Source: an uncultured Spirochaetaceae bacterium
GTDB taxonomy: Bacteria; Spirochaetota; Spirochaetia; Sphaerochaetales; Sphaerochaetaceae
Length of the DNA: 59,951 nucleotides
NCBI GenBank assembly: GCA_944389075.1
Contig: CALXLA010000003.1
Coordinates: 1-59,951 of the forward strand
Reading direction: 5' to 3'
Below, one piece after another: positions 12,061 to 31,102 of this stretch. A program made the position numbers and the translations under genes. The notes beneath the pieces are model-generated. The model was not told the origin of the DNA and did no database searches. It saw only the letters and a program-made list of their open reading frames with translations. Position 1 is the first letter of the stretch. Every line of letters starts with the position of its first letter.

Positions 12061-12612
12061 ATGATTGCTGCAATTGTGATTGCTATTGTTGTCCTGGCCA
12101 TCCTTCTCTGGGCCGTTGTTTCCTATAACTCATTCATCAAGCTTGCGAACAAGGCAGAGGAAGCCGATGCGGGCATAGACGCTGAGCTCAAGAAGCGCTA
12201 TGACCTTGTACCAAATCTGGTAGAGACTGTCAAAGGCTATGCAGCACATGAGAGCAGTACCCTTGAAGCTGTCATCACTGCACGAAACAATGCCGTGAAT
12301 GCAGAGGGCAGGGAAGCGAAGGACAATGCGGACAAAGGACTGACAGGCGCTCTTTCAAAACTCTTCGCGCTCTCCGAAAGCTATCCTGACCTGAAGGCAA
12401 ATCAGAATTTCATGTCTCTGCAGAATGATCTCAGGGATATCGAGACTTCGATTCTCAATGCCCGCAAGTACTACAATGCCGTAATCCGCGAATACAACGA
12501 CAGGACCATGGTATTCCCTGCATCGATTATCGCATCGATGTTCCATTTCAGGAAGAAGGAATACGTGGAAATCGAGGAAGCGCACAGGGAAAACATCAAA
12601 GTGGAGTTCTGA
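12061..12612 (+). CDS. lemA: LemA family membrane protein
   Basis: 183 residues from ATG 12061 with an AAGGAG site upstream; the open frame further upstream runs through argR's promoter. One N-terminal transmembrane helix (residues about 2-22, IAAIVIAIVVLAILLWAVV), then the LemA helical domain starting YNSFIKLANKAEEADAGIDAELKKRYDLVPNLVETVKGYA. The cellular role of LemA is not settled. The stop overlaps the start of a DUF2207 gene by one base; LemA-DUF2207 pairs are a recurring arrangement. Confidence 0.93.
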   Translation: MIAAIVIAIVVLAILLWAVVSYNSFIKLANKAEEADAGIDAELKKRYDLVPNLVETVKGYAAHESSTLEAVITARNNAVNAEGREAKDNADKGLTGALSKLFALSESYPDLKANQNFMSLQNDLRDIETSILNARKYYNAVIREYNDRTMVFPASIIASMFHFRKKEYVEIEEAHRENIKVEF

Positions 12613-14348
12613 TGAGAAAGATCGCTGTCCTTTTCATCTGCCTTCTGGCCCTTCTTCCGCTTTCTGCCGATGCAGGCTTCTCTATTGATAGCTATTCAGT
12701 GGATATCGATGTGCTGCCATCAAGAGCTGCATATATAAGCGAAGAACTGAATGTCGATTTCACCCAGCCATCGCATGGAATCATCAGGGATATCCAGACA
12801 GTTTTCCCGGGTGTCAGGGCAAAGGTCTCTGATATCCAGGGCAGCGCAATAGCAGGGGCAGAACGGAATGGTGATTTCCTTTCCGTATTGATGGGCGATG
12901 GTTCACGGATGGTTGTCGGACCGGTGTCTTACAGCCTTTCATATCTTTATGATATCGGAAGCGACAGATACCGCGGCTATGATGAGTTCTATTACAATAT
13001 AGTATCCCCTGCATGGGCTTCTGGCATGTCACAGGTTGAGTTCTCCGTTCATTTCCCGTATCCGATAGATGCTGACAGGGTATGGCTGACCTATGGGCCT
13101 GATGGCTCTTTGGCACAGCTTCCGGTCAATGTCTCTCAAGATGGGATGACTGTATATGGAAACTATGAAGGGCTTCCTCCTTATAATGCCATAACGCTGC
13201 GCGTCGAGATGGATGATGGCTATTTCACAAGAAGCGTCGATTTGTTTCAGTTCATACCGCTTATCGCATCGATTCTGGCGCTTGTCATAATCATCATTCT
13301 CTATATTGCTTTCGGACGCGATGAGAAGATCATCGCACCTGTAAGGTTCGAACCGCCTGAGAACTGCAACCCGGTTGCTGCAGAGTATGTCTACAAGAGC
13401 AGGGTGACACAGGATTCCGCCGCGGCTTCGATAATCTATTTCGCCGATAAGGGATATATATCCATTGACGGACTTGAGGATAAGAACACGAGATTCCATA
13501 AACTGAAGGAGCTGTCTACGGGAAGTCTTGCGCTCTCAACAGTCTTCCGCCTTCTTTTTCCCGGCGGTCCTGATAGTGATACAGCGCTTCTTCAGCTTAC
13601 GCACTTCGCGGATGCTTTCCAGTCCAGTATGCCATCTGCCGTGAAGAATGACATGAAGTACATCTATGACAGGAAATCGCTTGGTGTCTCGAAGGTGGCG
13701 ATAGCGGTTTTCTTCCTTGCTGTGATTGCATCATCTTTGCTTGCAGGCTTTGAAAGCGGTGAGCCGATGCTCTCGTTCTTCCTGTTCGTGCCGCTTCTGA
13801 TGCTGTTCATAATCCATCATGCAGGAGCTCCTGTCTTCGTCAGGATTTTCTTCACGATATTCCTTGCGGTCTTCGTGACAATTCCATTCGCCGGGCTTCT
13901 CTCGCAGTCATTCCTGTATATCGTCCTTCCGCCTTTCCTTTCCACGCTGATCGCACCGGTCATAATACGGAACATACGCAGATACTCAGCTGAAGGCAGG
14001 AAGCTCCGCTCTGAGATTGACGGGTACAGAGAGTTCATCGACAAGGTGGAAGCAGACAGGATCGCGAAGCTTTCAGAGGAGGATCCGCTGTTCTTCTATC
14101 ATGTCCTTCCATATGCCATGGTCTTCGGCCTCGCAGACAAGTGGTGCGATAAGTTCCGCCTGATATCCATCCAGTCACCAGACTGGTACGCTGGCACATT
14201 CGTCTACAATGATTTCAGGAGACAATGGATGCATGATTATTCAAGAATGCATGCCCCAAGATCCTCAAATGCAGGAAGAAGCTCATTCAGAGGTTCCTCC
14301 GGTTCTGCTGGCGGCGGGTTCTCCGGAGGTGGAGGCCGAAGCTGGTGA
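12612..14348 (+). CDS. DUF2207 membrane protein (LemA partner)
   Basis: 578 residues. Signal peptide (about residues 1-22, hydrophobic core then SADAG), an extracytoplasmic DUF2207 domain beginning FSIDSYSVDIDVLPSRAAYISEELNVDF, a transmembrane segment near 215-235 (FIPLIASILALVIIIILYIAF), two more hydrophobic stretches near 365-435, and a Gly/Ser-rich tail SGSAGGGFSGGGGRSW typical of this family. Function unknown; probably envelope-associated and working with LemA. Its stop overlaps the next gene's GTG start. Confidence 0.88.
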   Translation: MRKIAVLFICLLALLPLSADAGFSIDSYSVDIDVLPSRAAYISEELNVDFTQPSHGIIRDIQTVFPGVRAKVSDIQGSAIAGAERNGDFLSVLMGDGSRMVVGPVSYSLSYLYDIGSDRYRGYDEFYYNIVSPAWASGMSQVEFSVHFPYPIDADRVWLTYGPDGSLAQLPVNVSQDGMTVYGNYEGLPPYNAITLRVEMDDGYFTRSVDLFQFIPLIASILALVIIIILYIAFGRDEKIIAPVRFEPPENCNPVAAEYVYKSRVTQDSAAASIIYFADKGYISIDGLEDKNTRFHKLKELSTGSLALSTVFRLLFPGGPDSDTALLQLTHFADAFQSSMPSAVKNDMKYIYDRKSLGVSKVAIAVFFLAVIASSLLAGFESGEPMLSFFLFVPLLMLFIIHHAGAPVFVRIFFTIFLAVFVTIPFAGLLSQSFLYIVLPPFLSTLIAPVIIRNIRRYSAEGRKLRSEIDGYREFIDKVEADRIAKLSEEDPLFFYHVLPYAMVFGLADKWCDKFRLISIQSPDWYAGTFVYNDFRRQWMHDYSRMHAPRSSNAGRSSFRGSSGSAGGGFSGGGGRSW

Positions 14349-14968
14349 ATGACCTGACAGCACTTGCATTGTCTGCGGCTCTTGTGGCTGCAGCCTTTGC
14401 ATCTTCGTTTATCCTGACTAAGGTTTCAGCACCTTTATGGCTTTCCCGCAAGGCCTGCCATATCATTGTATCGTTCTGGGTATTCATAATGGCTGGCTGC
14501 TTTGAGACGACTTCTGCAAGAGTCATCGGTCCTGCTTTGTTTGCTGTCGTGAATCTTGTCCTCAGCAGGACAGGAGCCTCAGCTTCCGCCGGAATAGGCA
14601 AGGGCGGAAATGATATCGCGCTCGTGTTCTATCCTGTCTCTCTTCTTATTGTTTCAGTGTTGTACAGCTATGGTTCAATCTCTTCTGATACAGCAATTGC
14701 CAGCATCATGATTCTTGGTCTGGGAGATGGCTCTGCGGCGATTGCCGGACATATAGCAGGAAAGAAGGACAAGAGCCTTGTCGGAAGCGTTGCCATGGCT
14801 ATAGTTTCATTTCTGCTTGTTATTGCGATAACCGGGCTTTCCTTCCCATATGCCTTGCTTGTGGCGCTGGCAGTCTCTGCAGTGGAACGCATAACGCCCC
14901 ATGGCTATGATAATCTTACAGTACCTGTTGCCGCGGTACTGCTTCTGGAGGTCCTATGTATTCGCTGA
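14345..14968 (+). CDS. Phytol/dolichol-kinase-like integral membrane protein (VTE5-like)
   Basis: 207 residues with about six hydrophobic segments. The GTG at 14345 overlaps the DUF2207 stop. ILGLGDGSAAIAGHIAGKK resembles the CDP/CTP-binding GDG motif of the dolichol kinase/phytol kinase/CdsA group, and the tail VERITPHGYDNLTVPV is typical of phytol-kinase-like proteins. It would phosphorylate a polyprenol or other isoprenoid alcohol at the inner membrane. It overlaps the following DUF92 gene by 13 bases; see the paired finding. Confidence 0.75.
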   Translation: MNDLTALALSAALVAAAFASSFILTKVSAPLWLSRKACHIIVSFWVFIMAGCFETTSARVIGPALFAVVNLVLSRTGASASAGIGKGGNDIALVFYPVSLLIVSVLYSYGSISSDTAIASIMILGLGDGSAAIAGHIAGKKDKSLVGSVAMAIVSFLLVIAITGLSFPYALLVALAVSAVERITPHGYDNLTVPVAAVLLLEVLCIR

Positions 14969-15780
14969 CAGCATGGCTCGATGGATATTTCTTCAGCTTG
15001 CCGCTTATCTATAGATGTCTGATCATAATAGCTTTCATTGCTGTAGCTGCAGTCATTGCTTATAGAAAGAAAATGCTGACTCCATCAGGAGTCGCTGCCG
15101 CAGCTGTCCTTGGCTTTGCTGTGTTCTTCATAGGCGGAACAAGCTGTATCCTTGTATTTCTTTTCTTCTTTGTGACAGCATCCATAGCGTCAAGGCTGCT
15201 GCCTGTGCCTGTCGGCATTGTCCGCAAAGGTTCTGAAAGGGACTGGGTACAGGTTGCCGCGAATGGAGTGCCTGCTGCGGCTATGCTGATCCTGTACAGA
15301 TTCCAGGGCTGGGATGGCATTTATCTGATAGCGTTCGCATCAGCTGTCGCAGAGGCCGAGGCTGATACCTTTGCCTCATCGTTCGGTCTTCTGAGCCGGA
15401 AGCCGCCGCGCTCGATAATCACGGGCACCATTGTTCCTTCAGGCATTTCAGGAGGAATAACCTCTGCAGGAACTCTCGCATCTCTTGCAGGAGCATTCCT
15501 TGTAGCGCTCCTTTCGATGCCTTCGCTGATGCTGAGCATTCTTGAGTCCGGTGTGATACTCATAGCAGGCTTTGCAGGCTGTGTGCTTGATTCTGTTCTT
15601 GGAGGTGTTGTGCAGGCACAGTACAGGGCACCTGATGGAACATTGACAGAGAAGGACGAGATTGATGGAAAGAAGCTTGAAAGGGTAAGGGGCATATCAT
15701 TCATAGATAACGATGCGGTTAATCTCATCTCAGGGCTTTTCTCTGCATCGCTCGGACTGCTTCTTTCGCAGATTTTCTAG
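14956..15780 (+). CDS. DUF92 integral membrane protein (VTE6-like)
   Basis: 274 residues, multi-span. Segments LTPSGVAAAAVLGFAVFFIGG, the polar AEAEADTFASSFGLLSR motif, ITGTIVPSGISGGITSAGTLASL and the tail with IDNDAVNLISGLFSASLG are those of the DUF92/TMEM19 family. The plant member VTE6 phosphorylates phytyl phosphate to phytyl diphosphate. The neighbouring VTE5-like gene supplies the matching first kinase step, supporting an isoprenyl-alcohol salvage role; the substrate here is unknown. Confidence 0.82.
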   Translation: MYSLTAWLDGYFFSLPLIYRCLIIIAFIAVAAVIAYRKKMLTPSGVAAAAVLGFAVFFIGGTSCILVFLFFFVTASIASRLLPVPVGIVRKGSERDWVQVAANGVPAAAMLILYRFQGWDGIYLIAFASAVAEAEADTFASSFGLLSRKPPRSIITGTIVPSGISGGITSAGTLASLAGAFLVALLSMPSLMLSILESGVILIAGFAGCVLDSVLGGVVQAQYRAPDGTLTEKDEIDGKKLERVRGISFIDNDAVNLISGLFSASLGLLLSQIF

Positions 15781-15789
15781 GAGGGCAAT

Positions 15790-16599
15790 ATGTGGGACTG
15801 CAGCTCAGAAGAGCTTATCAGGAGAATCGAGGGACTTCAGGATAACCAAGTCATTCCTATGTCGCAGTGCGGGTTCATATTCTCCGTATCAGGCATGAAG
15901 ATTGCCATTGATGTGATGGCATCCGATCTTCTTGGAAGCGATGGGAAATCGAGACGCATTGTACCGCCTCCATTCGGATGCGATGAGCTGCCGTCGCTTG
16001 ATATCCTTCTTGTCACTCATGACCATGCTGATCATCTCGACAGGGCTGTCGTGGAGAGCCAGATGAGAAGGAATCCAGAATGCAGGATAATCGCGCCTGC
16101 ATCGATTCTCGATTCCCTGGATATCCCGCATGAGAGCAAAATCTATCTTTCAGATATGGAAAGATACAGTACCGGCGATTGCGTCATAACGCCTGTTCCT
16201 GTTCCTCACATGGAATACCATGAGTCATCTCCACACCACTCTGATTTCTATGGATACATCCTTGAGTATGGCGGCATGCGCATCTTCCATGGTGGCGATA
16301 TGGTTTCAGAATCCGGACTTATTGAGAGACTGAGGGAATATTCCTCATTCGATTATGCATTCCTTCCGATAAACGGGAGAGACAGCGAGAGGGAGAGCAG
16401 GGGAATCATAGGCAACATGCATCCTGATGAAGCTGTGGAGTTCGCTCTGGAGATCCATGCAAGGACGCTTGTTCCGACTCACTTCGATATGATTGCAGGC
16501 AATACAGGGGATCTTCAGGCGTTCAGGAATGCCGCAGAAGGACGTATCGGATACATCGTTCCAGTTCCCGGAAAGGCAATAGAGCTGAATCCATTTTGA
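15790..16599 (+). CDS. Metallo-beta-lactamase fold hydrolase (UlaG-like)
   Basis: 269 residues, cytoplasmic. The metal-binding motif THDHADHLD is near residue 75, a second His group at VPVPHMEYHE, GDMVSESG contributes an Asp, and PTHFDMIAGN near the end supplies the last His. The arrangement is that of UlaG/L-ascorbate-6-phosphate lactonase-like proteins, though no ascorbate genes are nearby and the substrate is open. It starts nine bases after the DUF92 gene with a GAGGG site and is the last gene of the lemA operon. Confidence 0.82.
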   Translation: MWDCSSEELIRRIEGLQDNQVIPMSQCGFIFSVSGMKIAIDVMASDLLGSDGKSRRIVPPPFGCDELPSLDILLVTHDHADHLDRAVVESQMRRNPECRIIAPASILDSLDIPHESKIYLSDMERYSTGDCVITPVPVPHMEYHESSPHHSDFYGYILEYGGMRIFHGGDMVSESGLIERLREYSSFDYAFLPINGRDSERESRGIIGNMHPDEAVEFALEIHARTLVPTHFDMIAGNTGDLQAFRNAAEGRIGYIVPVPGKAIELNPF

Positions 16600-18532: not shown

Positions 18533-19786
18533 ATGCACTATCCTGAGTTCGAATATTCATTGGATTGGATTACAAATAGTCATGATTGGTATGCGATTTC
18601 CGAAGGAAAAGACAAGGAGCTGTTTGATTCGCTATTTTCCATAATGAATTCCATCAGGCCTGATAAGAATGGATTCCGCACTATATGGATAGCACTTGAG
18701 CGTGGCCCTGAGCCTTCTGATGAGGAATGCGATGAAGCCGTGGCCTGTGATGGCTATGAATCCAGGGAAGAGTACATCAGGTTCTGGTTTGAGATGCATA
18801 GCCAGAGTATGCGGTATTACGAGGTCGATGCAGGCGAGAATAGTGATGGATTCCGCTCATTGATTGTGAAAAACCGGTTCGCATTTCAATATGATCCGGA
18901 AGACAGGAATTTCGGAAATACTGTCCGCAGGGCATTTGAAGATGAGCTTCAGCCGTTTCTCAGTGCCCTTATAGAACATGTCAGTGAAAGTATGAAGAAA
19001 GTATATGCTGGTACCTATAACAGCTGGCTTTCCGTGAATCTGCCTCCAAGAAATCGTATTGGCAGAATCAGGCGCTCAGCTCTCTGGGAGGCTTTTCCGT
19101 ACTCGCGTGAACGCTATATTGATGACCTGACAGATGAGGAGATAAAAGCGTTCGCCGATGCTGTTGATAGCGGTCAGACTGATATCGATAACATAGGCAG
19201 GCTTGATGAGATGACTGCCGGATTATTCTTCAGGGCTTGCGGCATCGGCTACAGGGCAGCAGGGGCACATCAATATGGAGTAAGGCTTAATGCCGATACC
19301 GATAAGGGCCTGTATCTTATCAATGCCGATGGAAGAGATGAAGGTCTCCGGGATATCCCAGAAGATGATCCTGAGGCTTTTGAATCATGGCTCAGGCACA
19401 GACCTCATATCGGGCATCCATGGGAAGTATGCAGGGGAGGGAATTCCACGCATGTAGACCTTTGCCCAATTGAAGATGATGGCGGATGGTATTTAAGTCT
19501 TGCCGGGGAGCTGCGTGCCATGGAGGTCGTGAGATTCTATCTTGCGCTCTCAAAGGAAGGTTTTCCTGTTTATGTATACAGAGCAGAGGCCATCAGGAAA
19601 GCTGTCCTTGGAGAGGATAATATAGGTATTGTTCCTGAAGGAGTGATTCCCGCTTATTGCGGCGATATGTTCCCGGGAGAGAACATAATCAGTTTCATGA
19701 ATATCTCAGAGGATGCTGAGAACAACGAAGCGTTCATGTCTGAAGCTGTATTCGATCCACCTGATAAGCTGGAGCTGAATGAGTGA
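18533..19786 (+). CDS. Protein of unknown function, 417 residues
   Basis: I do not recognise a family. It starts MHYPEFEYSLDWITNSHDW with GGAGG ahead of the ATG, is acidic (many Asp/Glu), rich in Trp and Tyr, and has no signal peptide or membrane helix, so it is likely cytoplasmic. Notable segments are FRTIWIALERGPEPSDEECDEA, a GNSTHVDLCPIEDDGGWYLSL stretch, and a Cys near CGIGYR. It sits directly upstream of the AT-rich defence island, but its base composition and codons look like the host's, so it is probably chromosomal and not part of the island. A hairpin follows its stop. Confidence 0.8.
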   Translation: MHYPEFEYSLDWITNSHDWYAISEGKDKELFDSLFSIMNSIRPDKNGFRTIWIALERGPEPSDEECDEAVACDGYESREEYIRFWFEMHSQSMRYYEVDAGENSDGFRSLIVKNRFAFQYDPEDRNFGNTVRRAFEDELQPFLSALIEHVSESMKKVYAGTYNSWLSVNLPPRNRIGRIRRSALWEAFPYSRERYIDDLTDEEIKAFADAVDSGQTDIDNIGRLDEMTAGLFFRACGIGYRAAGAHQYGVRLNADTDKGLYLINADGRDEGLRDIPEDDPEAFESWLRHRPHIGHPWEVCRGGNSTHVDLCPIEDDGGWYLSLAGELRAMEVVRFYLALSKEGFPVYVYRAEAIRKAVLGEDNIGIVPEGVIPAYCGDMFPGENIISFMNISEDAENNEAFMSEAVFDPPDKLELNE

Positions 19787-19895: not shown

Positions 19896-19934
19896 TACCT
19901 GGACTTTACACATGTATTTTTGATATTATACACG
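19896..19934 (+). promoter_or_regulatory. Candidate promoter of the methyltransferase gene
   Basis: An AT-rich stretch with TATTAT (about 19923-19928) preceded by TGGACT at 18 bases. Two similar ten-base blocks, TTACACATGT and TATACACGTC, flank it about one pair of helix turns apart and could be operator halves. Weak evidence. Confidence 0.3.
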
Positions 19935-19950
19935 TCAAGGGAGTTCGTGG

Positions 19951-21957
19951 ATGTCTACTTTTATTGATATGTTTGCAGGAGCTGGTGGCTTTAGTGAGGG
20001 ATTCTTGCAGGCAGAGTATGGTGGAAATAATTTTGAGTTTCTACTTGCAAGTGATATTAACCCAACATGTGAATTAACTCACTATGTGAGATATAATCTT
20101 CAACTGGGGCTGAATACTGCTTTCTTGACAAAAGACATAAGCGATTCCGATTTTATTGAGGTTCTTCTTGCGACGATAAGGCAAAATTTTGGAGATAAAT
20201 CGATAGATGTATTAACTGGAGGCCCCCCTTGTCAGTCATTCAGTCTTGCTGGAGAGCGAAGAAAGAATGACAAAAAAGATGATTTGTTTTCCTACTATTT
20301 AAAGGTTATTGGAATTATTAAGCCTAAGTATTTCATCATGGAAAATGTTTTTGGGATTCTTACCAAAGACAATGGTAAAATTAAAGAGAGAATCTTGCAT
20401 GAAATACGTAACATCATTGATTACGATGCTTTGAATAAGTTTGTGGTTTCTGTAGAGGATCTGATTGAAAAGATTCAGGATTCGAAAACAGAACTTGAGT
20501 TGTGCCTAAAAATTCTGAAAATCTGGATGGAAGATAATCGGCTTCTAGAGGAACGAAGAAATGATTATCTGGCTATATTGGATCATTTAAAGTCATATGA
20601 ATTATCAGAAAATCAGGAAGCATTTCTTAAGAAATCTTTACTTGAGAATAAGAATATAATCTCAAATCCTCTTTTGGTTGAATTTTGCAATTCTCTTTCC
20701 TCTCAGCTTGTAGAAGCATTTAGAAATGATAAGGAAACACCTGAAGATGATAGAAATGTTATACGACAGGCAGTAGCTTTAATAAGCAAGAGTGCAACAC
20801 TTAATCAGCTACAGCATGAAATAAAAAAACAAATCAATACAGCGCAACTTAAAAGAAGTATATATAAAACGCAATATGATCAGATTGCAGATTGGTTGAG
20901 TCTTGATAATATTCTTGATATTGCTGTTACACAGTGTGAGAAGATTGTTGCAACTAGTACCAATTCAAAAGCGAAATACGTACTTCAATATATCAGATTA
21001 GCGATAGATATAATATCAGAAGGACCATATGAAGTTGTTCAACGGGTCAATAGGCTTCTATTGAAAAATAATGTCGAATATAATGATCTTGAAAAAGATT
21101 TAAAAGCCATTTCTTTATATAACATTGCAAGTCCTATGATTTTACGTGCTTCTGATTATGGCGTGCCTCAGAATAGAGTACGAGTAGTTTTTATAGGCTG
21201 TCGGAATGATCAAAATATTATAACGAAGATTCCTCCAACTGTGTCTGATTCTAGCAAGGTCACGATAGCTGAGGCTATCGGCGATTTGAATTATATAAAG
21301 ATTGGAGAGCATCCTCTAGACTATGAATCATCTTTCTATTCTAAATTCAAAAGAACAAAAGCAGGTCATATTATGCGAGCTGCTGATGGTGCTTTGGCTA
21401 CAGACTCAAATAATGATTATAAAACATATGTTGAATGGAGTAGACAGGGAAGATTAAGTCCCGAAAGGTTCCCGAATCTAAAAAATGGAATGCCTATATA
21501 TTCGAAAGCAAACTCCATGGATGAATTTGATGAAGAAGATTTGCTCAGAGCAAAACTTCAGAATCATGAATCATCAAATCATAATGATATGGTTCAGGAG
21601 CGATATAAAATCATGAGGAAATATGGAGGATATCAAGAGGCTAAGGAAGCTGAACCAGATAATCCACTTATGGCAACAAAAAAAAGGAACTACACTGTTC
21701 TTAAACCAAACGAGCAAGCTCCAACTATTACGACAATGCCTGATGATTTTGTTCACTATGATGCAAATCGTTCTCTTACTGTAAGAGAGATGGCTCGATT
21801 GCAATCATTTGATGATAGCTTCGTGTTTCAAGGCAAGAGAGCAACAGGAGGTGATAAAAGAAAAGATGAAACACCCCAGTCCACGCAAGTTGGGAATGCC
21901 GTACCTCCTTTGATGGCACGGGCAATTGCAATGGAGATTTTGAAAAATATCAAATGA
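19951..21957 (+). CDS. drmMII: C5-cytosine DNA methyltransferase (DISARM DrmMII-like)
   Basis: 668 residues, with RBS AAGGGAG ahead of ATG 19951. It methylates cytosine C5 in host DNA to mark self. Motif I FAGAGGFSEGF (residues 8-18), motif IV GGPPCQSFS with the catalytic Cys94, motif VI ENV (131-133), motif VIII QNRVRV (from 407), motif IX REMARLQ, motif X QVGNAVPPLMARAIA near the end. The gap between motifs VI and VIII is about 270 residues against roughly 50-60 in ordinary enzymes and is filled with charged, probably helical sequence. It is the first gene of the AT-rich island. The stop lies 11 bases from the convergent restriction enzyme gene. The drmE-drmA-drmB operon beyond supports a class 2 DISARM methylase; it equally serves the adjacent nuclease. 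Confidence 0.9.
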   Translation: MSTFIDMFAGAGGFSEGFLQAEYGGNNFEFLLASDINPTCELTHYVRYNLQLGLNTAFLTKDISDSDFIEVLLATIRQNFGDKSIDVLTGGPPCQSFSLAGERRKNDKKDDLFSYYLKVIGIIKPKYFIMENVFGILTKDNGKIKERILHEIRNIIDYDALNKFVVSVEDLIEKIQDSKTELELCLKILKIWMEDNRLLEERRNDYLAILDHLKSYELSENQEAFLKKSLLENKNIISNPLLVEFCNSLSSQLVEAFRNDKETPEDDRNVIRQAVALISKSATLNQLQHEIKKQINTAQLKRSIYKTQYDQIADWLSLDNILDIAVTQCEKIVATSTNSKAKYVLQYIRLAIDIISEGPYEVVQRVNRLLLKNNVEYNDLEKDLKAISLYNIASPMILRASDYGVPQNRVRVVFIGCRNDQNIITKIPPTVSDSSKVTIAEAIGDLNYIKIGEHPLDYESSFYSKFKRTKAGHIMRAADGALATDSNNDYKTYVEWSRQGRLSPERFPNLKNGMPIYSKANSMDEFDEEDLLRAKLQNHESSNHNDMVQERYKIMRKYGGYQEAKEAEPDNPLMATKKRNYTVLKPNEQAPTITTMPDDFVHYDANRSLTVREMARLQSFDDSFVFQGKRATGGDKRKDETPQSTQVGNAVPPLMARAIAMEILKNIK

Positions 21958-21968
21958 TATTCAACATA

Positions 21969-23174
21969 TCATAGGATGTATATTTGAGGCGATCCTAATA
22001 GCATAGGTAAGTCGTCTGGGAACATTTTGAACAGCATCCCATGATCTCTCCATTTTCCTGTCTCTGGATTTATGTGAGCAGCTAAATCTACTGTTATCTT
22101 GCCTTCCTCTATCAATGGAACAAGCAGGGAGGCATTTGGCTCTTTTGTATGAAGAATTTTGTTATATTGGAAATATTCTCCATCAGCTTTTTTGATTGAA
22201 GCGGCCTCTACCCAGAACGTTTCATGATGCTTCAAAAGTAAAGTATCCTTGAGGTTTTTTAACAACCATCCTGAAACATATTTTGAGATATTGTCTTTTG
22301 TGTATATCAATTGCAGCTGATCTTGATTTTCTTGAATTGCCAATTGCAAGTCATATGCATTTGGTTTTGAAATGCGACATGTTTCATAGAGTTGCAATCG
22401 AGGTTTGTCTGAATCTCTTGGAATCTGAATTTTGCCATATGTTTCGACAATTTGCCGGTATTTCAAGCCTTCATCTGGTACTTTTGCAAATAATGTTTCT
22501 CTGGTTTGAGTCCTTTTTATGCCTCCCTTGGTTGTTCTGGTTGTTTTTAATTCAATGCCTTTGTAATCGGGGTTTTTAGAGTTGTTTCTTTTTATTCCAA
22601 GTGCATTTTCTAAAGTATCACCTACACCAGGATCTCCCGGAGTTATAGATTTTAGATACCCCATATTATGTATTTCTTGAATCTTGTTGCGTAATTCTTC
22701 AGCAATGGCGTTTTTAACGTATCTGGCTTCACTGATTATTTCACGTGCGATGCCATTGATATCAAGTACTGATTCGCTGATTGAAGGGTTGGATAGGTTA
22801 AAAACATAAATTGCACCTCTGATTACAATCAATGCCAGTAAATTATAAGGACGGCAATACTCTTTTAAATTCCTAAACCATATTCGAGGATCTCCATGTT
22901 TGGTAACTGGTCGGTATAATGAAGCACTGGTTTCTATTGTTCCAGAACTTGTGACAAAAAATGCTGGGACAACAGCTTTATTTTCTGGGCCTTGTTTTTG
23001 GCTTTGATAATTATGAACTTTCTCTGTATAAAGCAAATCTCTAACAGGGCTCGTTGCGTCCATTATTGATTTTGTATATCCAGTTTCAGTTGGAACAAGA
23101 AAAGCGACATTTACACCAGTATTGGCAAATACTTGAAAATATCGATCTATTGACGTATCAGCCTTACTAAGCAT
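21969..23174 (-). CDS. MvaI/BcnI-family type II restriction endonuclease
   Basis: 401 residues, GGGGG-type RBS before ATG 23174. The central GDTLENALGI (186-195) followed by PDYKGIELKTTRTT (E-L-K at 208-210) is the pattern I associate with the MvaI/BcnI family, whose founding members cut CC-W-GG and CC-S-GG. The Glu-x-Lys pair fits a PD-(D/E)xK-like active site. It is convergent with the methyltransferase gene and divergent from drmE, with a near-perfect inverted repeat in the drmE intergenic region. AT-rich like its neighbours. Recognition sequence is inferred from the family only. Confidence 0.82.
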   Translation of the reverse strand: MLSKADTSIDRYFQVFANTGVNVAFLVPTETGYTKSIMDATSPVRDLLYTEKVHNYQSQKQGPENKAVVPAFFVTSSGTIETSASLYRPVTKHGDPRIWFRNLKEYCRPYNLLALIVIRGAIYVFNLSNPSISESVLDINGIAREIISEARYVKNAIAEELRNKIQEIHNMGYLKSITPGDPGVGDTLENALGIKRNNSKNPDYKGIELKTTRTTKGGIKRTQTRETLFAKVPDEGLKYRQIVETYGKIQIPRDSDKPRLQLYETCRISKPNAYDLQLAIQENQDQLQLIYTKDNISKYVSGWLLKNLKDTLLLKHHETFWVEAASIKKADGEYFQYNKILHTKEPNASLLVPLIEEGKITVDLAAHINPETGKWRDHGMLFKMFPDDLPMLLGSPQIYIL

Positions 23175-23200
23175 AATCTACCCCCAGCATTTATTAACTA

Positions 23201-23248
23201 TGTTTTGATTGATTCTATTTTCTCTCTTTTGTTTAATCAATTAAAACA
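23201..23248. promoter_or_regulatory. 14-base inverted repeat in the divergent endonuclease/drmE promoter region
   Basis: TGTTTTGATTGATT (23201-23214) and AATCAATTAAAACA (23235-23248) match as an inverted repeat at 13 of 14 positions with a 20-base spacer. It lies 27 bases upstream of the endonuclease start and about 110 upstream of drmE, where one factor could govern both genes. Confidence 0.5.
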
Positions 23249-23303
23249 AATCTCTCAAATTTATGGCATAAATAAGCACTGTATATCTACAATTCTAATA
23301 TAT

Positions 23304-23313
23304 TGTTATAACA
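23304..23313. promoter_or_regulatory. Perfect palindrome upstream of drmE
   Basis: TGTTATAACA, about 50 bases before the drmE start, overlapping a possible -10 region. Possible operator or simply an AT-rich -10 element. Confidence 0.35.
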
Positions 23314-23361
23314 TACAAGATGTATTGGACTTGCGTTGTTTAGGGGAAGGGAGATTAAGGC

Positions 23362-25944
23362 ATGAAGTGCAAGATTAGCTGGCAAAACTATATTGCTAGT
23401 ATTTTGAATAAATCACATGAGATATATGATAATCTTTCATTTGAAAAGGAAGAGAAGCTCCCTTCAATCATTAAAGCAAGTGCATATATACAATCAAAAC
23501 TTAAAGAGCATAATAAGAATGCGATTTTTGTGGTTCCTGAATGTGAACTATCTTCTTGCCTCTTTTCTGTAGTGAATGCAATATCCTATATCCTTTCAGG
23601 AAAGAATAAAGGAGATATTACAACTATAGATGATTTTGAGCCTAACACAAAGGTAAGGGCATTAGACTGTACTATTTTGTTTAAGGGGGTTGAAGAAAGA
23701 GACGGAATAAAAAGGGTTAGGTTCGCATTCAAAGATGAGGGCTCGGGATTTCTTGCCTTACCTGATGCACTTCCCGTATTCCAAAAATCTGAGGGGAAAT
23801 TATCTTCATTTAACAATTGGGAAAAGCACTATGCTAAATGGAAAGCATCAAGTAACGAAAGTATTGAGCCATCTTTACTTGCCAGAATAAAGGACAAGAA
23901 ATCCTTCCTTGAAGGAAGTGTTGTCTATGTTGGCAATCTTCAAAACTCTAGAAACATTCTGTCTAATGCCTACATTAAAGGACAAGATTTAAGAGATATT
24001 CTTATAATCAAATATCTTACAAAGGATGGGGAATCAAAGGCACTGAAAGGAGTTGTCTCTGGTGTTCCTTCACTATTACTTGTATCTAACATTGATCAAA
24101 TTGTAGATCTGATAAATTCAAATACTAAAATACTTGGTGTTGTAATTGATTATTCTCAGAATTCAGCTTCTTTCATCGAACGATTAAAACATATTCTTAG
24201 ACAGGATATTCCTGTAACAATCTTTATGAATCCAGCTGATTCAATAGACAATACCTCAAGTCTATATGAGAGTTTGGGATTTAAGATATGGAAATGGGAT
24301 AAATTTGGAATTATTGATAAAATGTATGCTGACACAGGATACATAGAGCATGCAGTTGCAAACGAATGCAACAACTCCATTCAATTCATACCATGCTCAG
24401 CACCAGAAATAACAGAGGCTTTTGCAATTGCAAATAAGTATAAAAATCTTGTTGATAACGAAGAACTCCCTGATCAGATTTGTAGTATCTATAGTGATTA
24501 TGTTGGTTTTCTTTATGACCTAATGAGGGCCATTTCTCCTATAAATGATGCAGCTTATAATTCAATCAAAGAACAACTGGAATGTGATTCTGCCGTCTTA
24601 AAGAATTCGAAAATATCCGATGAAATGATTTCTGATATGGAAAAAATTGCTCATATCATACTTGCATTTGCTGAAAAAATGGCTATGGCAAAAAGTAGTT
24701 ATATTGGAAATACTATCCTTCAAAATAAACATAACGACTTGTTTGTTATTGTTCCTCCAAGAGCAAATAGACAGGACATTACGGGGTATTACAAAGAATT
24801 TTCTTTATTAAGAAATATTCATCCGAAAGTGTATCTGGTTTCATCAAAGGAATTCGAAAAGATAAGCCAGCATTCCGGAGATTTCACGGTAGTTGTCTCC
24901 TCTTGGTTTGATAAGAAAACTATGAGAGAACTTCTTTTTTCATATAAGTTCTCTGATATAAGAATCCTTCTCACAGAATATGAAGCAAAGTGGGCGATAG
25001 CAGCAATTCGATTCTGGAATAAGGAGCTGAATGATACATGCAATAAAGAGATAATAGATAACTATATTTCAAATGATACTATTGAGGTGGATGGAGGTTG
25101 CTTTTCAGGGAAAGATATTTTTGATCAATTGCCGGAATTTAGTATTGAAAAAGAGGAAGAAATCCATCCTGAGGATATTACAGATTCTGATTTGTCTGTA
25201 ATTGAGCAATATTTCAGAAATCTTAAATACCGCAAGTACAGAGCAAATAGCTCTGGGAATAGTTCTGAAACAATAGTAGACGCATTACCTATTGAGTATG
25301 TAGATAACAATATTTCGTTCTTTATTCCGGATCATGAGCTTATAGTTTGTGAAACCAATGACGATGACATAATACGGGTTGTAAAAAAATCGGCTCAGGA
25401 CTTAAGTGTTGGAGATGCCGTTGCTTTGCGAAAAGATGATAATGATTTAATTAGAGCCGTTGCGGATATAGCATTAAAAGAACAGAATGCGGAATCTGCA
25501 AGAGAATCGGCAGCATACTTCCAGAATTTTCTTATGCGAAAGGTAGGAAATGTTGCCTCTTTCCATCGTAAGCTTATTGATTCAGGTTATGGTATTAGCT
25601 ATGCAGCAGTTTTATCTTGGGTTAATAATGATGATTTTATTGGCGTTCAGGACAAAGCTGCTTTGTATGCAGTTGCAAATATTTTAAATTCTGATTTTCT
25701 CAAAGAAAATGCTGATAGGATTTTTGATGCTGCTGAAACAGTGAAGAATGCCCATCGAAGTGCAGGGAAGGCACTGTCAAAGTTGCTGAATGATTATTTG
25801 CAGAAGCAGAAGCTAGAAAGAATCCCTTTGACAATGACAACACAAGAGTTCGGTGAAATCGAATTCCATGTTGTAGATAATATTGGCGAACCTATTAAAA
25901 TAGAACGCTCTCGATTAAATCATATTCGGATAAAGGATGTGTAA
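23362..25944 (+). CDS. drmE: DISARM protein DrmE (unknown biochemical function)
   Basis: 860 residues; RBS GGGAAGGGAG lies ahead of ATG 23362. The assignment rests mainly on context: size, class 2 DISARM gene order (drmE-drmA-drmB), and a C-terminal region with ALPIEYVDNNISFFIPDHELIVCE...DLSVGDAVALRKDDNDLIRAV that resembles the conserved end of DrmE-type proteins. No signal peptide, membrane helix, Walker motif or nuclease motif is evident by eye. In B. paralicheniformis DrmE is required for defence. It is six bases upstream of drmA, AT-rich, and divergent from the endonuclease gene. Confidence 0.72.
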   Translation: MKCKISWQNYIASILNKSHEIYDNLSFEKEEKLPSIIKASAYIQSKLKEHNKNAIFVVPECELSSCLFSVVNAISYILSGKNKGDITTIDDFEPNTKVRALDCTILFKGVEERDGIKRVRFAFKDEGSGFLALPDALPVFQKSEGKLSSFNNWEKHYAKWKASSNESIEPSLLARIKDKKSFLEGSVVYVGNLQNSRNILSNAYIKGQDLRDILIIKYLTKDGESKALKGVVSGVPSLLLVSNIDQIVDLINSNTKILGVVIDYSQNSASFIERLKHILRQDIPVTIFMNPADSIDNTSSLYESLGFKIWKWDKFGIIDKMYADTGYIEHAVANECNNSIQFIPCSAPEITEAFAIANKYKNLVDNEELPDQICSIYSDYVGFLYDLMRAISPINDAAYNSIKEQLECDSAVLKNSKISDEMISDMEKIAHIILAFAEKMAMAKSSYIGNTILQNKHNDLFVIVPPRANRQDITGYYKEFSLLRNIHPKVYLVSSKEFEKISQHSGDFTVVVSSWFDKKTMRELLFSYKFSDIRILLTEYEAKWAIAAIRFWNKELNDTCNKEIIDNYISNDTIEVDGGCFSGKDIFDQLPEFSIEKEEEIHPEDITDSDLSVIEQYFRNLKYRKYRANSSGNSSETIVDALPIEYVDNNISFFIPDHELIVCETNDDDIIRVVKKSAQDLSVGDAVALRKDDNDLIRAVADIALKEQNAESARESAAYFQNFLMRKVGNVASFHRKLIDSGYGISYAAVLSWVNNDDFIGVQDKAALYAVANILNSDFLKENADRIFDAAETVKNAHRSAGKALSKLLNDYLQKQKLERIPLTMTTQEFGEIEFHVVDNIGEPIKIERSRLNHIRIKDV

Positions 25945-25949
25945 TAAAA

Positions 25950-28900
25950 ATGACTGATGTAAGGAATATAATCAAAGATATAGTATATAGAGAGTTTGTC
26001 GGTCCAGATCCTATTAAGGAAAATCCGGATCTCATCCAAGAAAATGGAGAAGAGATACTTCAATATGATTCACCATTGCGGAAATATACTGCTGGAATAC
26101 TATTTCCTTTGGGTACAACAAAAATACGAACATCGACAACATCAAAAGAACTAGACGAAGAAAAGGCTGATGAAGAGGATAATTCATTCATTTCTAATGA
26201 AGTAGATTCAGAATTCTCAAATGACGATACTGACAATATACAAAGCCTCACAAACTCTTATATGCCATCTGCAATGGGATTGACTATCGCTATTAAACAA
26301 GAAGATGACATATTTATAACGGTATCTGCTGGACATTACGACAAAACCAAAGGAGAAATCCCTCAGTATTATAGAAAGCAAATCACGTGGAGCAATAATG
26401 GGGATAGTTTAAAGCTTCCGGACAAGAAGAATAATTCGGTTGCTTATTCCATTGCTGACAGTTATTTATCATTTCGTATTGACTACCGTTATACTGTTAA
26501 CAGAGTTGATATTTTTACATGTACTTTGATAAATACCAAAACGAGATCAGCTGCAGTTTCTAGGGATGTGGAATGCTATTTCCAATGTGGGTTTACACTG
26601 GTCTCTGCAAAAGGGTTTGAGAATCTACCCGATGCAGCACGATTAACCAAAGACGAAGACTATATATCAAATCAGCTACTGTATAGAAATGTTAAAAACT
26701 ATGCCATAGGACACGGTTGTGCTGCTGATTGGGCGGAAGACACTGAGGGGACAGTATATCAGATTGAAACTTCGATATTTCCTTCATACGAACTAAAAAC
26801 AATAACTCCTGCATCAATCGAAGGGATCTCTCTTTCGATGCAAGCTTTTGGAGATATTGAAAAAGCAAAATCAACATTTTCTGAACTTAGACAACTCTGT
26901 TACAAGTATGAAGAATGGATATGTGAGAGAGATAGGGAACTGATTTGTATCCCTGATATTTATAATGAAGAAGCAAGTAAACATATATTAAATTGCAGGA
27001 ATTGTCTTAATCGTATGCGAGAAGGTGTAATGTTGCTTGAATCTGATGCATCTGTTTTAGAGGCATTCACGCTAATGAATAGAGCAATGCTTTTACAGCA
27101 ATTGCATTATAATCTCCCGTTGCAACAATGGAAGATAATCAATGGGCTTCAAAAAGAACTTATAAATCCGATTCATTTGCCAAAATATGAAGATCCTTCA
27201 ACTTGGCATGGCGATAAAGATCGTTATGGTCATTGGCGACCATTCCAGATTGCATTCATTCTTATGAACTTAAAATCTATGAATGATCCTTCCTGCGATG
27301 AACGTAAGATTGTTGATTTGATATGGTTTCCTACTGGAGGTGGCAAAACTGAAGCCTATCTAGGACTTTCGGCCTTTACAATCTTTCTGCGCAGATTGCA
27401 TAATCCATCAGATGTTGGGACATCCATTATCATGCGATATACATTACGACTTCTATCTGCTCAGCAATATTCCAGAGCAGCTAGTCTAATATGTGCATGT
27501 GAGATAATCAGGAAGGAGCAAAGTGATAAACTTGGTAAAACTCCAATCTCTATAGGCCTGTACGTTGGCAGTGCTTCTACTCCAAATACTGAAAAAGATG
27601 CTGTGAAGGCATTAGATCAGATGTATAATCGAACAAGTGAAGAAAATCCCTTCATTGTATTGAAATGTCCATGGTGTGGGGCAGAAATGGGTATCATAAA
27701 ATATGATTCCTTTTCTGATGTTGCAGGGTATCATACAGAAGGTAGGGGTAATAATGCAAAGTTCTTTATGAGTTGTGATAACCCAGAATGTGATTTCTCA
27801 GGACAAGAAAAGCTACCATTATATGTCATTGATGAGACTATATATAATGTTGAACCTACATTAGTATTGGGAACTGTAGATAAATTTGCAATGTTGCCAT
27901 ATAGACCGAAAGCTCAAAGCCTATTCGGGCTTCATAATGGAAAAAGATATTCATCTGCACCTGACTTGATTATACAGGACGAGCTTCATCTGATTTCTGG
28001 CCCTTTAGGATCAATGGTTGGAATGTATGAGACTCTTATAGGTGAATTATCGTCAGATTATATTGACGGTAAGTATCGCAAGCCAAAAATCATTGCTTCT
28101 ACTGCAACAATAAGCAGGGCGAAGGAGCAATGCAATGCACTGTATGCATGCAATGCTGATGATGTAGTGCAATTTCCGCCGGCTGGATTTGACTATTCTG
28201 ATTCCTTCTTTGCAAAACTTGATAATTCAAAATCCGGTAGGGACTATATTGGAATATTAGCCTCAGGTGGTACTTCTAAGATTGCAATGGTCGCACGACT
28301 TTTTGCCACACTATTATATGCTGGCAAGATTCTTGAGAAGAGTAACCCCGAACTTGCGGATTTCTATTGGACCAACATAGCTTACTTTAATAGCATAAAA
28401 GAACTTGGGCATGCTGAAACTCTTATTAATGCTGAAGTGCGTGAACAATTATCTCTGATTTATCAACGTCATAAAGCGCCCAATGTTATAGATGATGAGA
28501 CTCGACGAGATGCTCTTGGTTTGTTCAGCAATGAATTAACCAGTAGAATAAGTAGCGATAAGGTCACTCAATCTTTACAGAAACTTGAAGTTTCGCTACC
28601 AGTAGAGAATCATCCGATTGATATCTGTCTTGCCACCAATATGATTTCTGTTGGGCTTGATATCTCAAGACTTGGCCTTATGACCGTTATGGGACAACCA
28701 AAAACAACTTCTGAGTATATTCAGGCTACAAGCCGTGTTGGTCGTAAAGCTTCAGGACCAGGTCTTGTATTTGTACTATATAATGGAGCTCGTCCACGCG
28801 ATCGCTCACATTATGAAAATTTCAGGAATTATCATGCAAGAGTATACTGTAATGTAGAACCCACTAGTGTTACTCCTTTTGCAGAGCCTGTTATTGAAAG

Positions 28901-29276
28901 GGCACTTCATGCTGTAGCTATCGGTTTGATTCGGTTGATGGGTACAGTAAAATCGTATGATATTCCGAATCCGCCAACAGAGGAGCAAAAGGAATATGTA
29001 AGCAATATAATCTTAAATCGAATAGAAAAGATTGCCCCAGAAGAAGTACCAATAGCTAAAAATCGATTAAGTAGAATTTTTGAAATATGGGAAAATAACC
29101 AACCTGCAGTTTATGATGACCTATCAGGAAAAGGGAATAAGATACCTCTTATGTTCCCATATGGGCAATTGAAAAATCCAGAGTGGGGAGACAGTGAAGA
29201 ATTCCCATTTAGGACATTAACATCAATGCGAGCCGTAGATGCATCTTCAGAGGTGTATATCTTAGGGAAATATTGA
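25950..29276 (+). CDS. drmA: DISARM helicase DrmA
   Basis: 1108 residues, an SF2-type helicase. Motif I WFPTGGGKTEAYLG starts at residue 459 (Lys466), motif II is QDELH (Asp677), motif III STATIS near 717, motif VI QATSRVGRKASGPG near 927. A four-Cys zinc-ribbon-like insertion (CPWCG...CDNPEC) lies between motifs I and II. The long N-terminal region before residue 450 is typical of DrmA and lacks helicase motifs. Known DrmA works with DrmB on phage DNA with a 5' single-stranded overhang. The stop is 11 bases before the drmB ATG. Confidence 0.93.
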   Translation: MTDVRNIIKDIVYREFVGPDPIKENPDLIQENGEEILQYDSPLRKYTAGILFPLGTTKIRTSTTSKELDEEKADEEDNSFISNEVDSEFSNDDTDNIQSLTNSYMPSAMGLTIAIKQEDDIFITVSAGHYDKTKGEIPQYYRKQITWSNNGDSLKLPDKKNNSVAYSIADSYLSFRIDYRYTVNRVDIFTCTLINTKTRSAAVSRDVECYFQCGFTLVSAKGFENLPDAARLTKDEDYISNQLLYRNVKNYAIGHGCAADWAEDTEGTVYQIETSIFPSYELKTITPASIEGISLSMQAFGDIEKAKSTFSELRQLCYKYEEWICERDRELICIPDIYNEEASKHILNCRNCLNRMREGVMLLESDASVLEAFTLMNRAMLLQQLHYNLPLQQWKIINGLQKELINPIHLPKYEDPSTWHGDKDRYGHWRPFQIAFILMNLKSMNDPSCDERKIVDLIWFPTGGGKTEAYLGLSAFTIFLRRLHNPSDVGTSIIMRYTLRLLSAQQYSRAASLICACEIIRKEQSDKLGKTPISIGLYVGSASTPNTEKDAVKALDQMYNRTSEENPFIVLKCPWCGAEMGIIKYDSFSDVAGYHTEGRGNNAKFFMSCDNPECDFSGQEKLPLYVIDETIYNVEPTLVLGTVDKFAMLPYRPKAQSLFGLHNGKRYSSAPDLIIQDELHLISGPLGSMVGMYETLIGELSSDYIDGKYRKPKIIASTATISRAKEQCNALYACNADDVVQFPPAGFDYSDSFFAKLDNSKSGRDYIGILASGGTSKIAMVARLFATLLYAGKILEKSNPELADFYWTNIAYFNSIKELGHAETLINAEVREQLSLIYQRHKAPNVIDDETRRDALGLFSNELTSRISSDKVTQSLQKLEVSLPVENHPIDICLATNMISVGLDISRLGLMTVMGQPKTTSEYIQATSRVGRKASGPGLVFVLYNGARPRDRSHYENFRNYHARVYCNVEPTSVTPFAEPVIERALHAVAIGLIRLMGTVKSYDIPNPPTEEQKEYVSNIILNRIEKIAPEEVPIAKNRLSRIFEIWENNQPAVYDDLSGKGNKIPLMFPYGQLKNPEWGDSEEFPFRTLTSMRAVDASSEVYILGKY

Positions 29277-29287
29277 AGGGTATTTAT

Positions 29288-31102
29288 ATGAGAAGGACAG
29301 AGAGGCAGATAAGAAGAGGCAGTTTGATTACACCCTGGGGAGTTGGTGCGATTATACCATTCCCGAACGATGATACTTTAATGATTGCTGGATTGGATAA
29401 CTGGTACTATGAATCAGAAAACCCTGATGAATATGAAATAGAGGATTATAGGTTGGCAGAGCGGCTTGGCGTGAAAGTGTTCAGAATGCCTCCTGATTAC
29501 CATGAGAGAGGTTTGAACAGGAAGGTTAGAATTCCTTCTGTTAGATTTCCAAGGTGGTATTATTGTCCTAAATGTGGGTATATGCAAAAGGTTAGTTACT
29601 ATTCGAATATAAAGCCTACCTGCCCAGAGTGTTTAGAGAAGAATCCAAAAGCAAAACCAATTAACATGATTCCTGACCGATACATTGTGGTTTGCCCAGA
29701 AGGGCATGTTGATGATTTTCCTTTTGGAGAATGGCTGCATTTTAATAGCGGACACCAATATGATCCGAGTACCTGCAAGTTAAAACGACTTTCACGCAAA
29801 GGAACTACTTCATATTCAATAGTTCAATATGAATGTACTACTTGTGGTGTACATAAATCTTTTGGAGATGCTTTATTGCCAGAAGCTCTTTCCAGAATTA
29901 ATTTTCAATGTTCGGGTTCTATGCCTTGGCTTGGTATAGATCACTCTGATTGTGACAGCCATGCATCAGAGTTAAAAGTATCTCTGGTGAATTCTTCCAA
30001 TGTGTGGTTCGGTGAGACTAAGAGTTCAATATATATCCCATATGATGATATGAAAGCTAAGATACGGCATGATATAGAAACAAATCTTACAACGATAAGA
30101 TTATTAATTTCTGGAGCCTCTATTAGCCATATAGCAGAAGCCTTATCGAAATCCAAGAATTTATCAACTGATATGTATTGCAAGATGTTGGAACAACGAC
30201 TGAATAATGAAGGATGGGAAAATGCTAACGAGACTGCCAATGAAGATGATTATCGTAAGGATGAATATGATGTACTCCGAACTACTATAGAAATAAAGGA
30301 TTTTCCTTTCAGAACGAAGAATTTATCAATCGATAATTATGATTCTAAGCTCAGTAAGTATTTTAAGAGCATAACATTGGTTCCAAAACTAAAGGAAACA
30401 AGGGCTTTGATTGGTTTTTCTAGACTTGTCCCTGTTGGCGAAAAATCAGATTTAAAAACTCTTCGCAAAAATATGTCAAGGAATCCTGTTGATTGGTTGC
30501 CTGCGATTGAAGTCTATGGCGAAGGGATTTTCTTTGAATTTAATTATGAAACAATAAAATGTTGGCTTGAGAACGAAGAAGTAAGCAAACGAATTAATTT
30601 GATTGACAATGCTCTTTTGAAATCAAAGCTGTATCATCATTATTCAGATGCTAGCTTGAAGCCAGAGTTTGTTATGATTCATACATTTGCACATTTAATG
30701 ATTAATCAGTTAAGCTTTGAATGTGGATATGGCAGCTCATCATTGAGAGAAAGAATTTACTGTGAGAAATATGCTGACCGAAACGAGATGCACGGAGTAT
30801 TGATTTATACAGCCTCTGGTGATTCTGAAGGTTCTCTTGGAGGTCTTGTTAATCAAGGAAAACCAAACGCATTAGAAAATACAATTTTTGCTGCAATTGA
30901 GAATGCAAGATGGTGTTCATCGGATCCTGTTTGTATTGAATCACGGGGGCAGGGACCCGATTCCTGCAATCTTGCAGCTTGCTATAATTGCACATTGTTG
31001 CCAGAAACAAGTTGTGAATATGGAAATAGATTGCTTGACAGAGGAATTGTAATCGGGACTTTGGACAATTCCTCTATTGGATATTTTGCTGACTTAAAAT
31101 AG
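29288..31102 (+). CDS. drmB: DISARM protein DrmB (DUF1998)
   Basis: 604 residues from ATG 29288, which has GAAGGG seven bases ahead; a TTG at 29273 inside the drmA end is less likely. The N-terminus RRTERQIRRGSLITPWGVGAIIPF is DrmB-like. Zinc-binding Cys groups occur at YYCPKCG...TCPEC (near residue 85) and YECTTCG. The C-terminal DUF1998 domain has HTFAHLMINQLSFECGYGSSSLRERIY and a Cys-rich end DSCNLAACYNCTLL. DrmB partners DrmA in the core DISARM complex. No drmC (PLD protein) follows; the next gene is on the other strand and chromosomal. Confidence 0.93.
   Translation: MRRTERQIRRGSLITPWGVGAIIPFPNDDTLMIAGLDNWYYESENPDEYEIEDYRLAERLGVKVFRMPPDYHERGLNRKVRIPSVRFPRWYYCPKCGYMQKVSYYSNIKPTCPECLEKNPKAKPINMIPDRYIVVCPEGHVDDFPFGEWLHFNSGHQYDPSTCKLKRLSRKGTTSYSIVQYECTTCGVHKSFGDALLPEALSRINFQCSGSMPWLGIDHSDCDSHASELKVSLVNSSNVWFGETKSSIYIPYDDMKAKIRHDIETNLTTIRLLISGASISHIAEALSKSKNLSTDMYCKMLEQRLNNEGWENANETANEDDYRKDEYDVLRTTIEIKDFPFRTKNLSIDNYDSKLSKYFKSITLVPKLKETRALIGFSRLVPVGEKSDLKTLRKNMSRNPVDWLPAIEVYGEGIFFEFNYETIKCWLENEEVSKRINLIDNALLKSKLYHHYSDASLKPEFVMIHTFAHLMINQLSFECGYGSSSLRERIYCEKYADRNEMHGVLIYTASGDSEGSLGGLVNQGKPNALENTIFAAIENARWCSSDPVCIESRGQGPDSCNLAACYNCTLLPETSCEYGNRLLDRGIVIGTLDNSSIGYFADLK

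Follow-up and report, generated by a model that had tools for sequence, protein, structure and literature searches.

How does a DISARM (defence island system associated with restriction–modification) locus tell self from non-self when the C5 methylase encoded beside it appears to belong to a different defence system? The question is raised by a stretch of 59,951 nucleotides (hereafter the window) on contig CALXLA010000003.1, from the draft genome of a gut spirochaete, an uncultured Spirochaetaceae bacterium (GCA_944389075.1). Positions 19951–31102 of the window hold five open reading frames (ORFs), all intact: a C5-cytosine methylase (+ strand), an MvaI/BcnI-family nuclease (− strand), and drmE–drmA–drmB (+ strand). 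These genes, with their coordinates, their strands and the convergent/divergent orientation of the nuclease, had been described in an initial annotation made from the sequence alone, and an ORF check together with hidden Markov models (HMMs) bore the description out. The locus is a genuine and unusual arrangement, in which a class 2-like DISARM is combined with a known type of restriction–modification (R-M) system. The reading that we favour, with a probability of about 0.5, is that an R-M pair of the UbaLAI type stands in the place of the DISARM methylase DrmMII and doubles as the self-marking module of the class 2-like core DrmE–DrmA–DrmB.

The first step is to establish what the methylase is. 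The gene (19951–21957, +) encodes a C5-cytosine DNA methyltransferase of 668 amino acids (aa) and of R-M type (PF00145, E = 3.9e-55), in which the motifs FAGAGG, PPCQ, ENV, QNRVR and GNAVPP are all intact and an insertion of about 190 aa lies between motifs VI and VIII. The initial annotation was right about the C5 type; an identity with the DISARM methylase DrmMII did not survive. The best PADLOC model is MTase_II, at 263 bits against 157 bits for DrmMII, whereas true DrmMII controls score the opposite way (550 for DrmMII versus 337 for MTase_II in locus L266, and 457 versus 322 in locus L309). In a FastTree phylogeny, which contains several long branches, the protein groups with the partners of nucleases of the same type, apart from DrmMII. 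Because of these reversed scores and this position in the tree, DrmMII was rejected, and the protein is the partner methylase of the R-M pair.

The partner, encoded on the opposite strand (21969–23174, −), is a two-domain restriction endonuclease of 401 aa whose placement in the MvaI_BcnI family held (PF15515, E = 3.4e-64), as did the claim that a full R-M pair is present, both enzymes being intact. In the C-terminal catalytic domain (about residues 155–400), the PD-(x4)-E-x-K active site is preserved, and D203, E208 and K210 are invariant across 51 homologues; profile comparisons reach E = 2.7e-29 with R.MvaI and E = 8.7e-21 with R.BcnI. Residues 152–400 of the AlphaFold2 model (pLDDT 93.6) align with MvaI (VIA Z = 16.7) and BcnI (Z = 15.4). 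The N-terminal part (about residues 10–140) is a B3-like DNA-binding domain. When it was modelled alone (pLDDT 96.6), all 21 VIA matches at Z ≥ 5 were B3 domains (Z = 5.0–9.2), among them those of EcoRII-N, UbaLAI, BfiI and NgoAVII, and the next matches, to unrelated folds, reached Z = 2.7; a Foldseek search with this domain returned nothing at E ≤ 0.001, so that the B3 match is that of the VIA comparison. A single-domain MvaI/BcnI nuclease was also considered, and was rejected because the B3 domain is present in the models. UbaLAI combines a B3 domain with an MvaI-like domain and recognizes CC/WGG. Since the modelled nuclease has the same architecture, CCWGG is its predicted site. Like UbaLAI-type systems, the window has a two-domain PD-ExK nuclease with a methylase adjacent to it; it differs from them in that the nuclease is 22–28% identical to MvaI and BcnI, the CCWGG site is a prediction, the methylase carries its insertion, and DISARM genes lie alongside.

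Across the R-M loci collected (L033–L084, L125–L204), MvaI/BcnI nucleases of about 230–280 aa adjoin SPPY-type methylases, which probably modify N4-cytosine, and those of about 400 aa with a B3 domain adjoin C5 methylases; within the phylum, single-domain nucleases likewise adjoin SPPY genes. Because SPPY partners go without a B3 domain and C5 partners with one, this domain may supply the sensitivity of the nuclease to 5-methylcytosine (5mC). Two variants of the gene were also seen: two tandem nuclease copies in L207:8690-11092, and a nuclease followed by a second fragment of the N-terminal domain in L192:10001-11567.

The other three genes are those of DISARM. The gene drmA (25950–29276, +) encodes a superfamily 2 helicase of 1108 aa that matches NF038325 at 914 bits, the DrmA of structure 7s9v at E = 3e-137 and the PADLOC DrmA model at E = 8e-218, with the motifs GGGKT, DELH and QATSRVGR intact; its score lies below the NF038325 equivalog cut-off of 950, as do those of its relatives in L266 (930) and L309 (861). 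Its MZB/DUF1998 zinc-binding partner DrmB, of 609 aa (29273–31102, +; alternative ATG start at 29288), matches NF038324 (448 bits, cut-off 240), PF09369 and the DrmB of 7s9v (E = 4e-72). Searches of phages returned no relatives of DrmA or DrmB. The 860-aa product of the first gene (23362–25944, +) belongs with the DrmE family, as annotated (NCBIfam NF038316, 250 bits against a cut-off of 80; PF24957, 30.7 against 27), and this placement is at family level only, the PADLOC match being weak (E = 4.6e-5) and the canonical NF038323 equivalog not being reached. The protein is 24–25% identical, over its full length, to the DrmE of L266 and L267. When 393 genomes of the phylum were scanned with NF038316, it alone exceeded the cut-off, the other matches being weak ones of about 60 residues in proteins of about 1100 aa; plasmids and viral contigs yielded no relatives. 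The matches of the island genes to HMMs and structures lie far beyond chance.

Set against class 2 DISARM (drmMII–drmE–drmA–drmB–drmC, from B. paralicheniformis), the window shares the order and strand of its genes for a DrmE-family protein, DrmA and DrmB, an adjacent C5 methylase and a predicted CCWGG site. It differs in that its methylase is of R-M type and does not abut drmE codirectionally, the nuclease lying between them; drmC is lacking, and DrmE fits the broad family model, not the canonical equivalog.

Which of these absences matters? We compared 51 DrmA loci, one of them that of the window, which came from genomes, viral contigs and plasmids and whose gene content was scored by simple rules; drmC was called as a small phospholipase D (PLD) ORF directly after drmB. 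By this measure, drmC occurs in 13 of 48 loci; the 15 loci closest to the window all lack it, and it has been described as dispensable and often missing in DISARM (PMC9142583). The initial annotation had noted its absence correctly: in the source draft genome (2.23 Mb, 60 contigs, 95% complete, the basis of every genome-wide absence given here), the only PLDc_2 ORFs are of 508 aa and 707 aa, neither DrmC-sized nor adjoining DISARM genes. With drmC missing from all 15 nearest loci, its absence here is ordinary, and for that reason the suggestion that the nuclease substitutes for DrmC was abandoned as the leading explanation. The three nearest loci, L373, L266 and L267 (Bacillota and a viral contig; 50–51% identity in DrmA, 49–51% in DrmB), read drmMII–drmE–NERD/UvrD–drmA–drmB, without drmC. 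An L. plantarum plasmid carries drmMII–(802 aa)–drmA–drmB, without drmC or a NERD gene; its 802-aa product did not match the DrmE models. Because drmMII is present in all four, a co-encoded C5 methylase is usual in this branch of DISARM. The items missing from the window are thus DrmMII and the NERD gene rather than DrmC, with the R-M pair found instead. The draft genome yielded no NERD protein and no PF00145 methylase besides that of the island; an N6 methylase (527 aa) and a weaker match of 1421 aa are on other contigs. The NERD/UvrD helicase gene adjoins DrmAB in 13 of the 51 loci (L266, L267, L373, L260, L297, L298, L261, L376, L166, L168 and others), and it may be an overlooked DISARM effector.

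The lack of two genes that all three nearest loci possess, together with the divergence of DrmE from its nearest relatives and its weak PADLOC match, would also be seen if drmEAB were a decaying remnant left after the loss of drmMII and the NERD gene, with the R-M pair alone functional. However, drmE, drmA and drmB are full length and closely packed, their helicase and zinc motifs are intact, and DrmA and DrmB still share about 50% identity with their counterparts in complete loci; we consider decay of this kind very improbable.

If the R-M pair does stand in for DrmMII, how would the two systems work together? Methylation lowers the ATPase activity of DrmAB, which prefers 5′ overhangs (PMC9142583), and one methylase could plausibly serve both systems. 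The R-M methylase would place 5mC on host CCWGG-type sites, and the nuclease, with its B3 and MvaI-like domains, would be the first to cut incoming DNA that is unmethylated at those sites. The same mark would keep DrmAB, whose activation is promoted when DNA bears 5′ overhangs and is unmethylated, off the host DNA, and DrmAB would act on phage DNA that escapes the nuclease or has no sites. The ends made by the nuclease (CC/WGG, short 5′ ends) might possibly serve as entry points for DrmAB; this hand-over is the most speculative step, because the cut leaves an overhang of one base only.

A shared mark requires a shared site. The DISARM of B. paralicheniformis methylates CCWGG (PMC5957327), and the initial annotation had proposed a CC-N-GG-type site for the methylase, a claim that gains from the UbaLAI-like architecture and from a modest depletion of CCWGG in two carrier genomes. 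Sites were counted in a 398-kb sample of the source genome outside the island, in 137 kb of G226, a congener that also carries the pair, and in eight congeners that lack the nuclease as far as tested. The observed/expected ratio of CCWGG is 0.72 in the source and 0.57 in G226, compared with 0.67–0.92 in the eight others, and CCSGG is not depleted. The carriers rank first and third of the ten, which would occur by chance about once in 22 times, so this signal is weak. The ten sampled genomes (the source, G000, as L311–L330 plus the window, and nine congeners) all show a depletion of GATC, with ratios of 0.58–0.87.

Several observations count against the sharing of one mark. One control, G337, is as low in CCWGG as a carrier. 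In a table of PMC10305163, MvaI is given as cutting irrespective of internal 5mC, so that the site predicted here, or the base within it that is methylated, may be another. Some DrmAB loci, such as L307, have no recognizable methylase nearby, and DISARM may for this reason work without one. The pair itself occurs without drm genes: in locus L070 of G226, the methylase is 78% and the nuclease 86% identical to those of the window, and the convergent layout is kept; other drm-free pairs are on small plasmids, one of them of 11.8 kb. In view of these copies, the R-M pair is autonomous, and nothing in it forces cooperation with DISARM. Lastly, among the 23 nearest nucleases of the tree, only that of the window has a DISARM link.

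A rival reading is that two independent systems share one defence island, a mobile and self-sufficient UbaLAI-type pair having arrived beside a drmEAB that uses no methylase or an unrelated mark, with adjacency due to the clustering of defence genes only. The drm-free copies of the pair and the methylase-less DrmAB loci such as L307 speak for it. The edges of the pair are sharp: a blastn comparison of the window with L070 aligns 19898–23196 at 74.6% over 3304 columns and nothing beyond, so that the shared cassette ends 53 bp ahead of the methylase start and 22 bp ahead of the nuclease start. The stand-alone pair of G226 adjoins a BREX gene, a truncated PglZ, as well as a transposase fragment (L070:11121-13769). 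Elsewhere, on R. opacus pROB02 (L306:8842-18613), drmA–drmB is accompanied in an island-like fashion by a NERD gene, an NaeI-type nuclease, Vsr, HNH and a C5 methylase. DISARM has been described as mixing components (PMC9142583), and YprA-helicase systems as sharing modules (PMC12458937). Given that drmC, NERD, methylase and NaeI-type content differs among the collected loci, the set of accessory genes, for nucleases and methylases, that surrounds DrmAB varies freely. Independence is nevertheless opposed by the lack of DrmMII at the very position that it has in the nearest relatives, with the R-M methylase as the sole C5 methylase found; by the agreement between the predicted site of the pair and the CCWGG of DISARM; by a base composition common to all five genes; and by the repeated tight, often codirectional linkage of R-M pairs of this type with DISARM or Druantia genes. 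We regard two unconnected systems as a serious possibility, though not the favoured one, and between functional sharing and mere adjacency the odds are about even.

The base composition bears on how the genes came together. G+C per kb is 0.33–0.40 in the island and about 0.45–0.51 in its surroundings, and third-position G+C is 0.27–0.30 in all five genes against 0.46–0.53 in three host genes measured. In the source contig, groEL and a U32 peptidase gene lie on either side of the block; in congener G409, the neighbourhood is syntenic (ORFs 12612–16599, groEL, U32 peptidase, phosphoenolpyruvate carboxykinase and an RNase D-like gene) and the island is absent, the groEL–U32 space holding instead a single ORF that by eye resembles an AraC-type regulator. 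Because of this common low G+C and of the empty site in G409, the five genes look like cargo of similar origin, and they may have arrived together. Within the block, 11 bp separate the stop codons of the convergent methylase and nuclease, and a divergent intergenic region of 187 bp (23175–23361), which presumably holds both promoters, separates the nuclease from drmE; drmE and drmA are 5 bp apart, and drmA and drmB overlap. The groEL–U32 gap also contains an unrelated ORF of 417 aa (18533–19786, G+C 0.47), which had no matches in Pfam, NCBIfam or PADLOC and which has homologues (24–56% identity) in 7 of 39 congeners, located elsewhere in those genomes.

Is the linkage of such pairs with helicase defence systems peculiar to the window? 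The initial annotation had called the arrangement non-standard, which is right in that it is unusual, and searches of accessible (non-subscription) literature titles and abstracts for DISARM with MvaI, DrmE or type II restriction did not return it; yet it recurs. When genome contigs were scanned with an alignment of the nuclease, 80 loci of related pairs emerged, in almost all of which a C5 methylase adjoins the nuclease. In 12 of them, the pair is near DISARM or Druantia-type helicase genes, ten being near DruE-type genes. The two DISARM-like cases, both alphaproteobacterial (L166, Novosphingobium; L168, Porphyrobacter), have the pair 2–3 kb from drmA–drmB, with a NERD/UvrD gene and no recognized DrmE; so few DISARM-like cases among the 80 are a further point for independent systems. 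Of the ten others, six are strong Druantia-like DruF–DruE–helicase operons. The methylase starts about 120–140 bp past a Druantia-like operon in four of the 80 loci and in the plasmid locus L065, and in L131, from the wider clade that holds the window nuclease, it adjoins a UvrD-type and an MZB helicase gene. Where at least 6 kb was available on both sides, a helicase defence system was nearby in 10 of 44 loci. One alphaproteobacterial clade contains 14 pairs, of which 9 have Druantia- or DISARM-type genes next to them, several at a distance of 123–139 bp. The nuclease tree requires at least two origins for the DISARM link (the window; L166/L168). Clustering of the DISARM/Druantia labels on this tree was not significant against shuffles, and a small control of single-domain PF15515 nuclease loci with wide flanks, few in number, gave no DISARM or Druantia match. 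Since DrmA is found in just a few per cent of genomes, we infer that the linkage exceeds random placement, with defence-gene clustering as a live rival. An ORF for an HhH-GPD base-excision glycosylase comes after the pair, or overlaps its end, in L166:11175-11861 and L174:11154-11858, and also in L161 and L171; the glycosylase might be a partner of the C5 methylase that repairs T:G mismatches in the manner of Vsr.

In the alphaproteobacterial Druantia-type loci (L065, L163, L172, L174, L193 and others), as in the window, an R-M-type methylase and a B3–MvaI nuclease adjoin a helicase system, and the known form of Druantia has a methylase module, as does DISARM. Their core is different, DruF–DruE with a UvrD/NERD-like gene in place of DrmE–DrmA–DrmB, and the two R-M genes are codirectional. 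One could generalize from these loci that B3–MvaI pairs are a plug-in module for self-marking and first cutting, which replaces DrmMII in DISARM and DruM in Druantia: a shared CCWGG mark would give protection from nuclease and helicase complex alike, cleavage would hand 5′ ends to the helicase, and a two-stage defence would run on one methylase. We consider so broad a scheme rather unlikely. ARMADA, BRIGADE, TALON and other YprA-helicase systems, in the available part of PMC12458937, offer a parallel in that they share the helicase superfamily and have exchangeable methylase and nuclease modules; the modules described in that part are PglX-type methylases, base hypermodification, and Vsr, PLD or NERD nucleases, and a type II R-M pair is not named there.

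The locus bears on two questions about DISARM: by what means it distinguishes self from non-self, and which nuclease, if any, it uses. With DrmMII and the usual accessory nuclease genes missing and a well-understood CCWGG-type R-M system present, both questions become testable, as known enzymes could be used to switch the mark on or off or to exchange it. A single working system of this kind may be divided in two by annotation pipelines, or overlooked by them for want of drmMII and drmC. More generally, the finding of the same type of R-M pair next to Druantia-type genes points to a movement of methylation modules from one helicase defence system to another.

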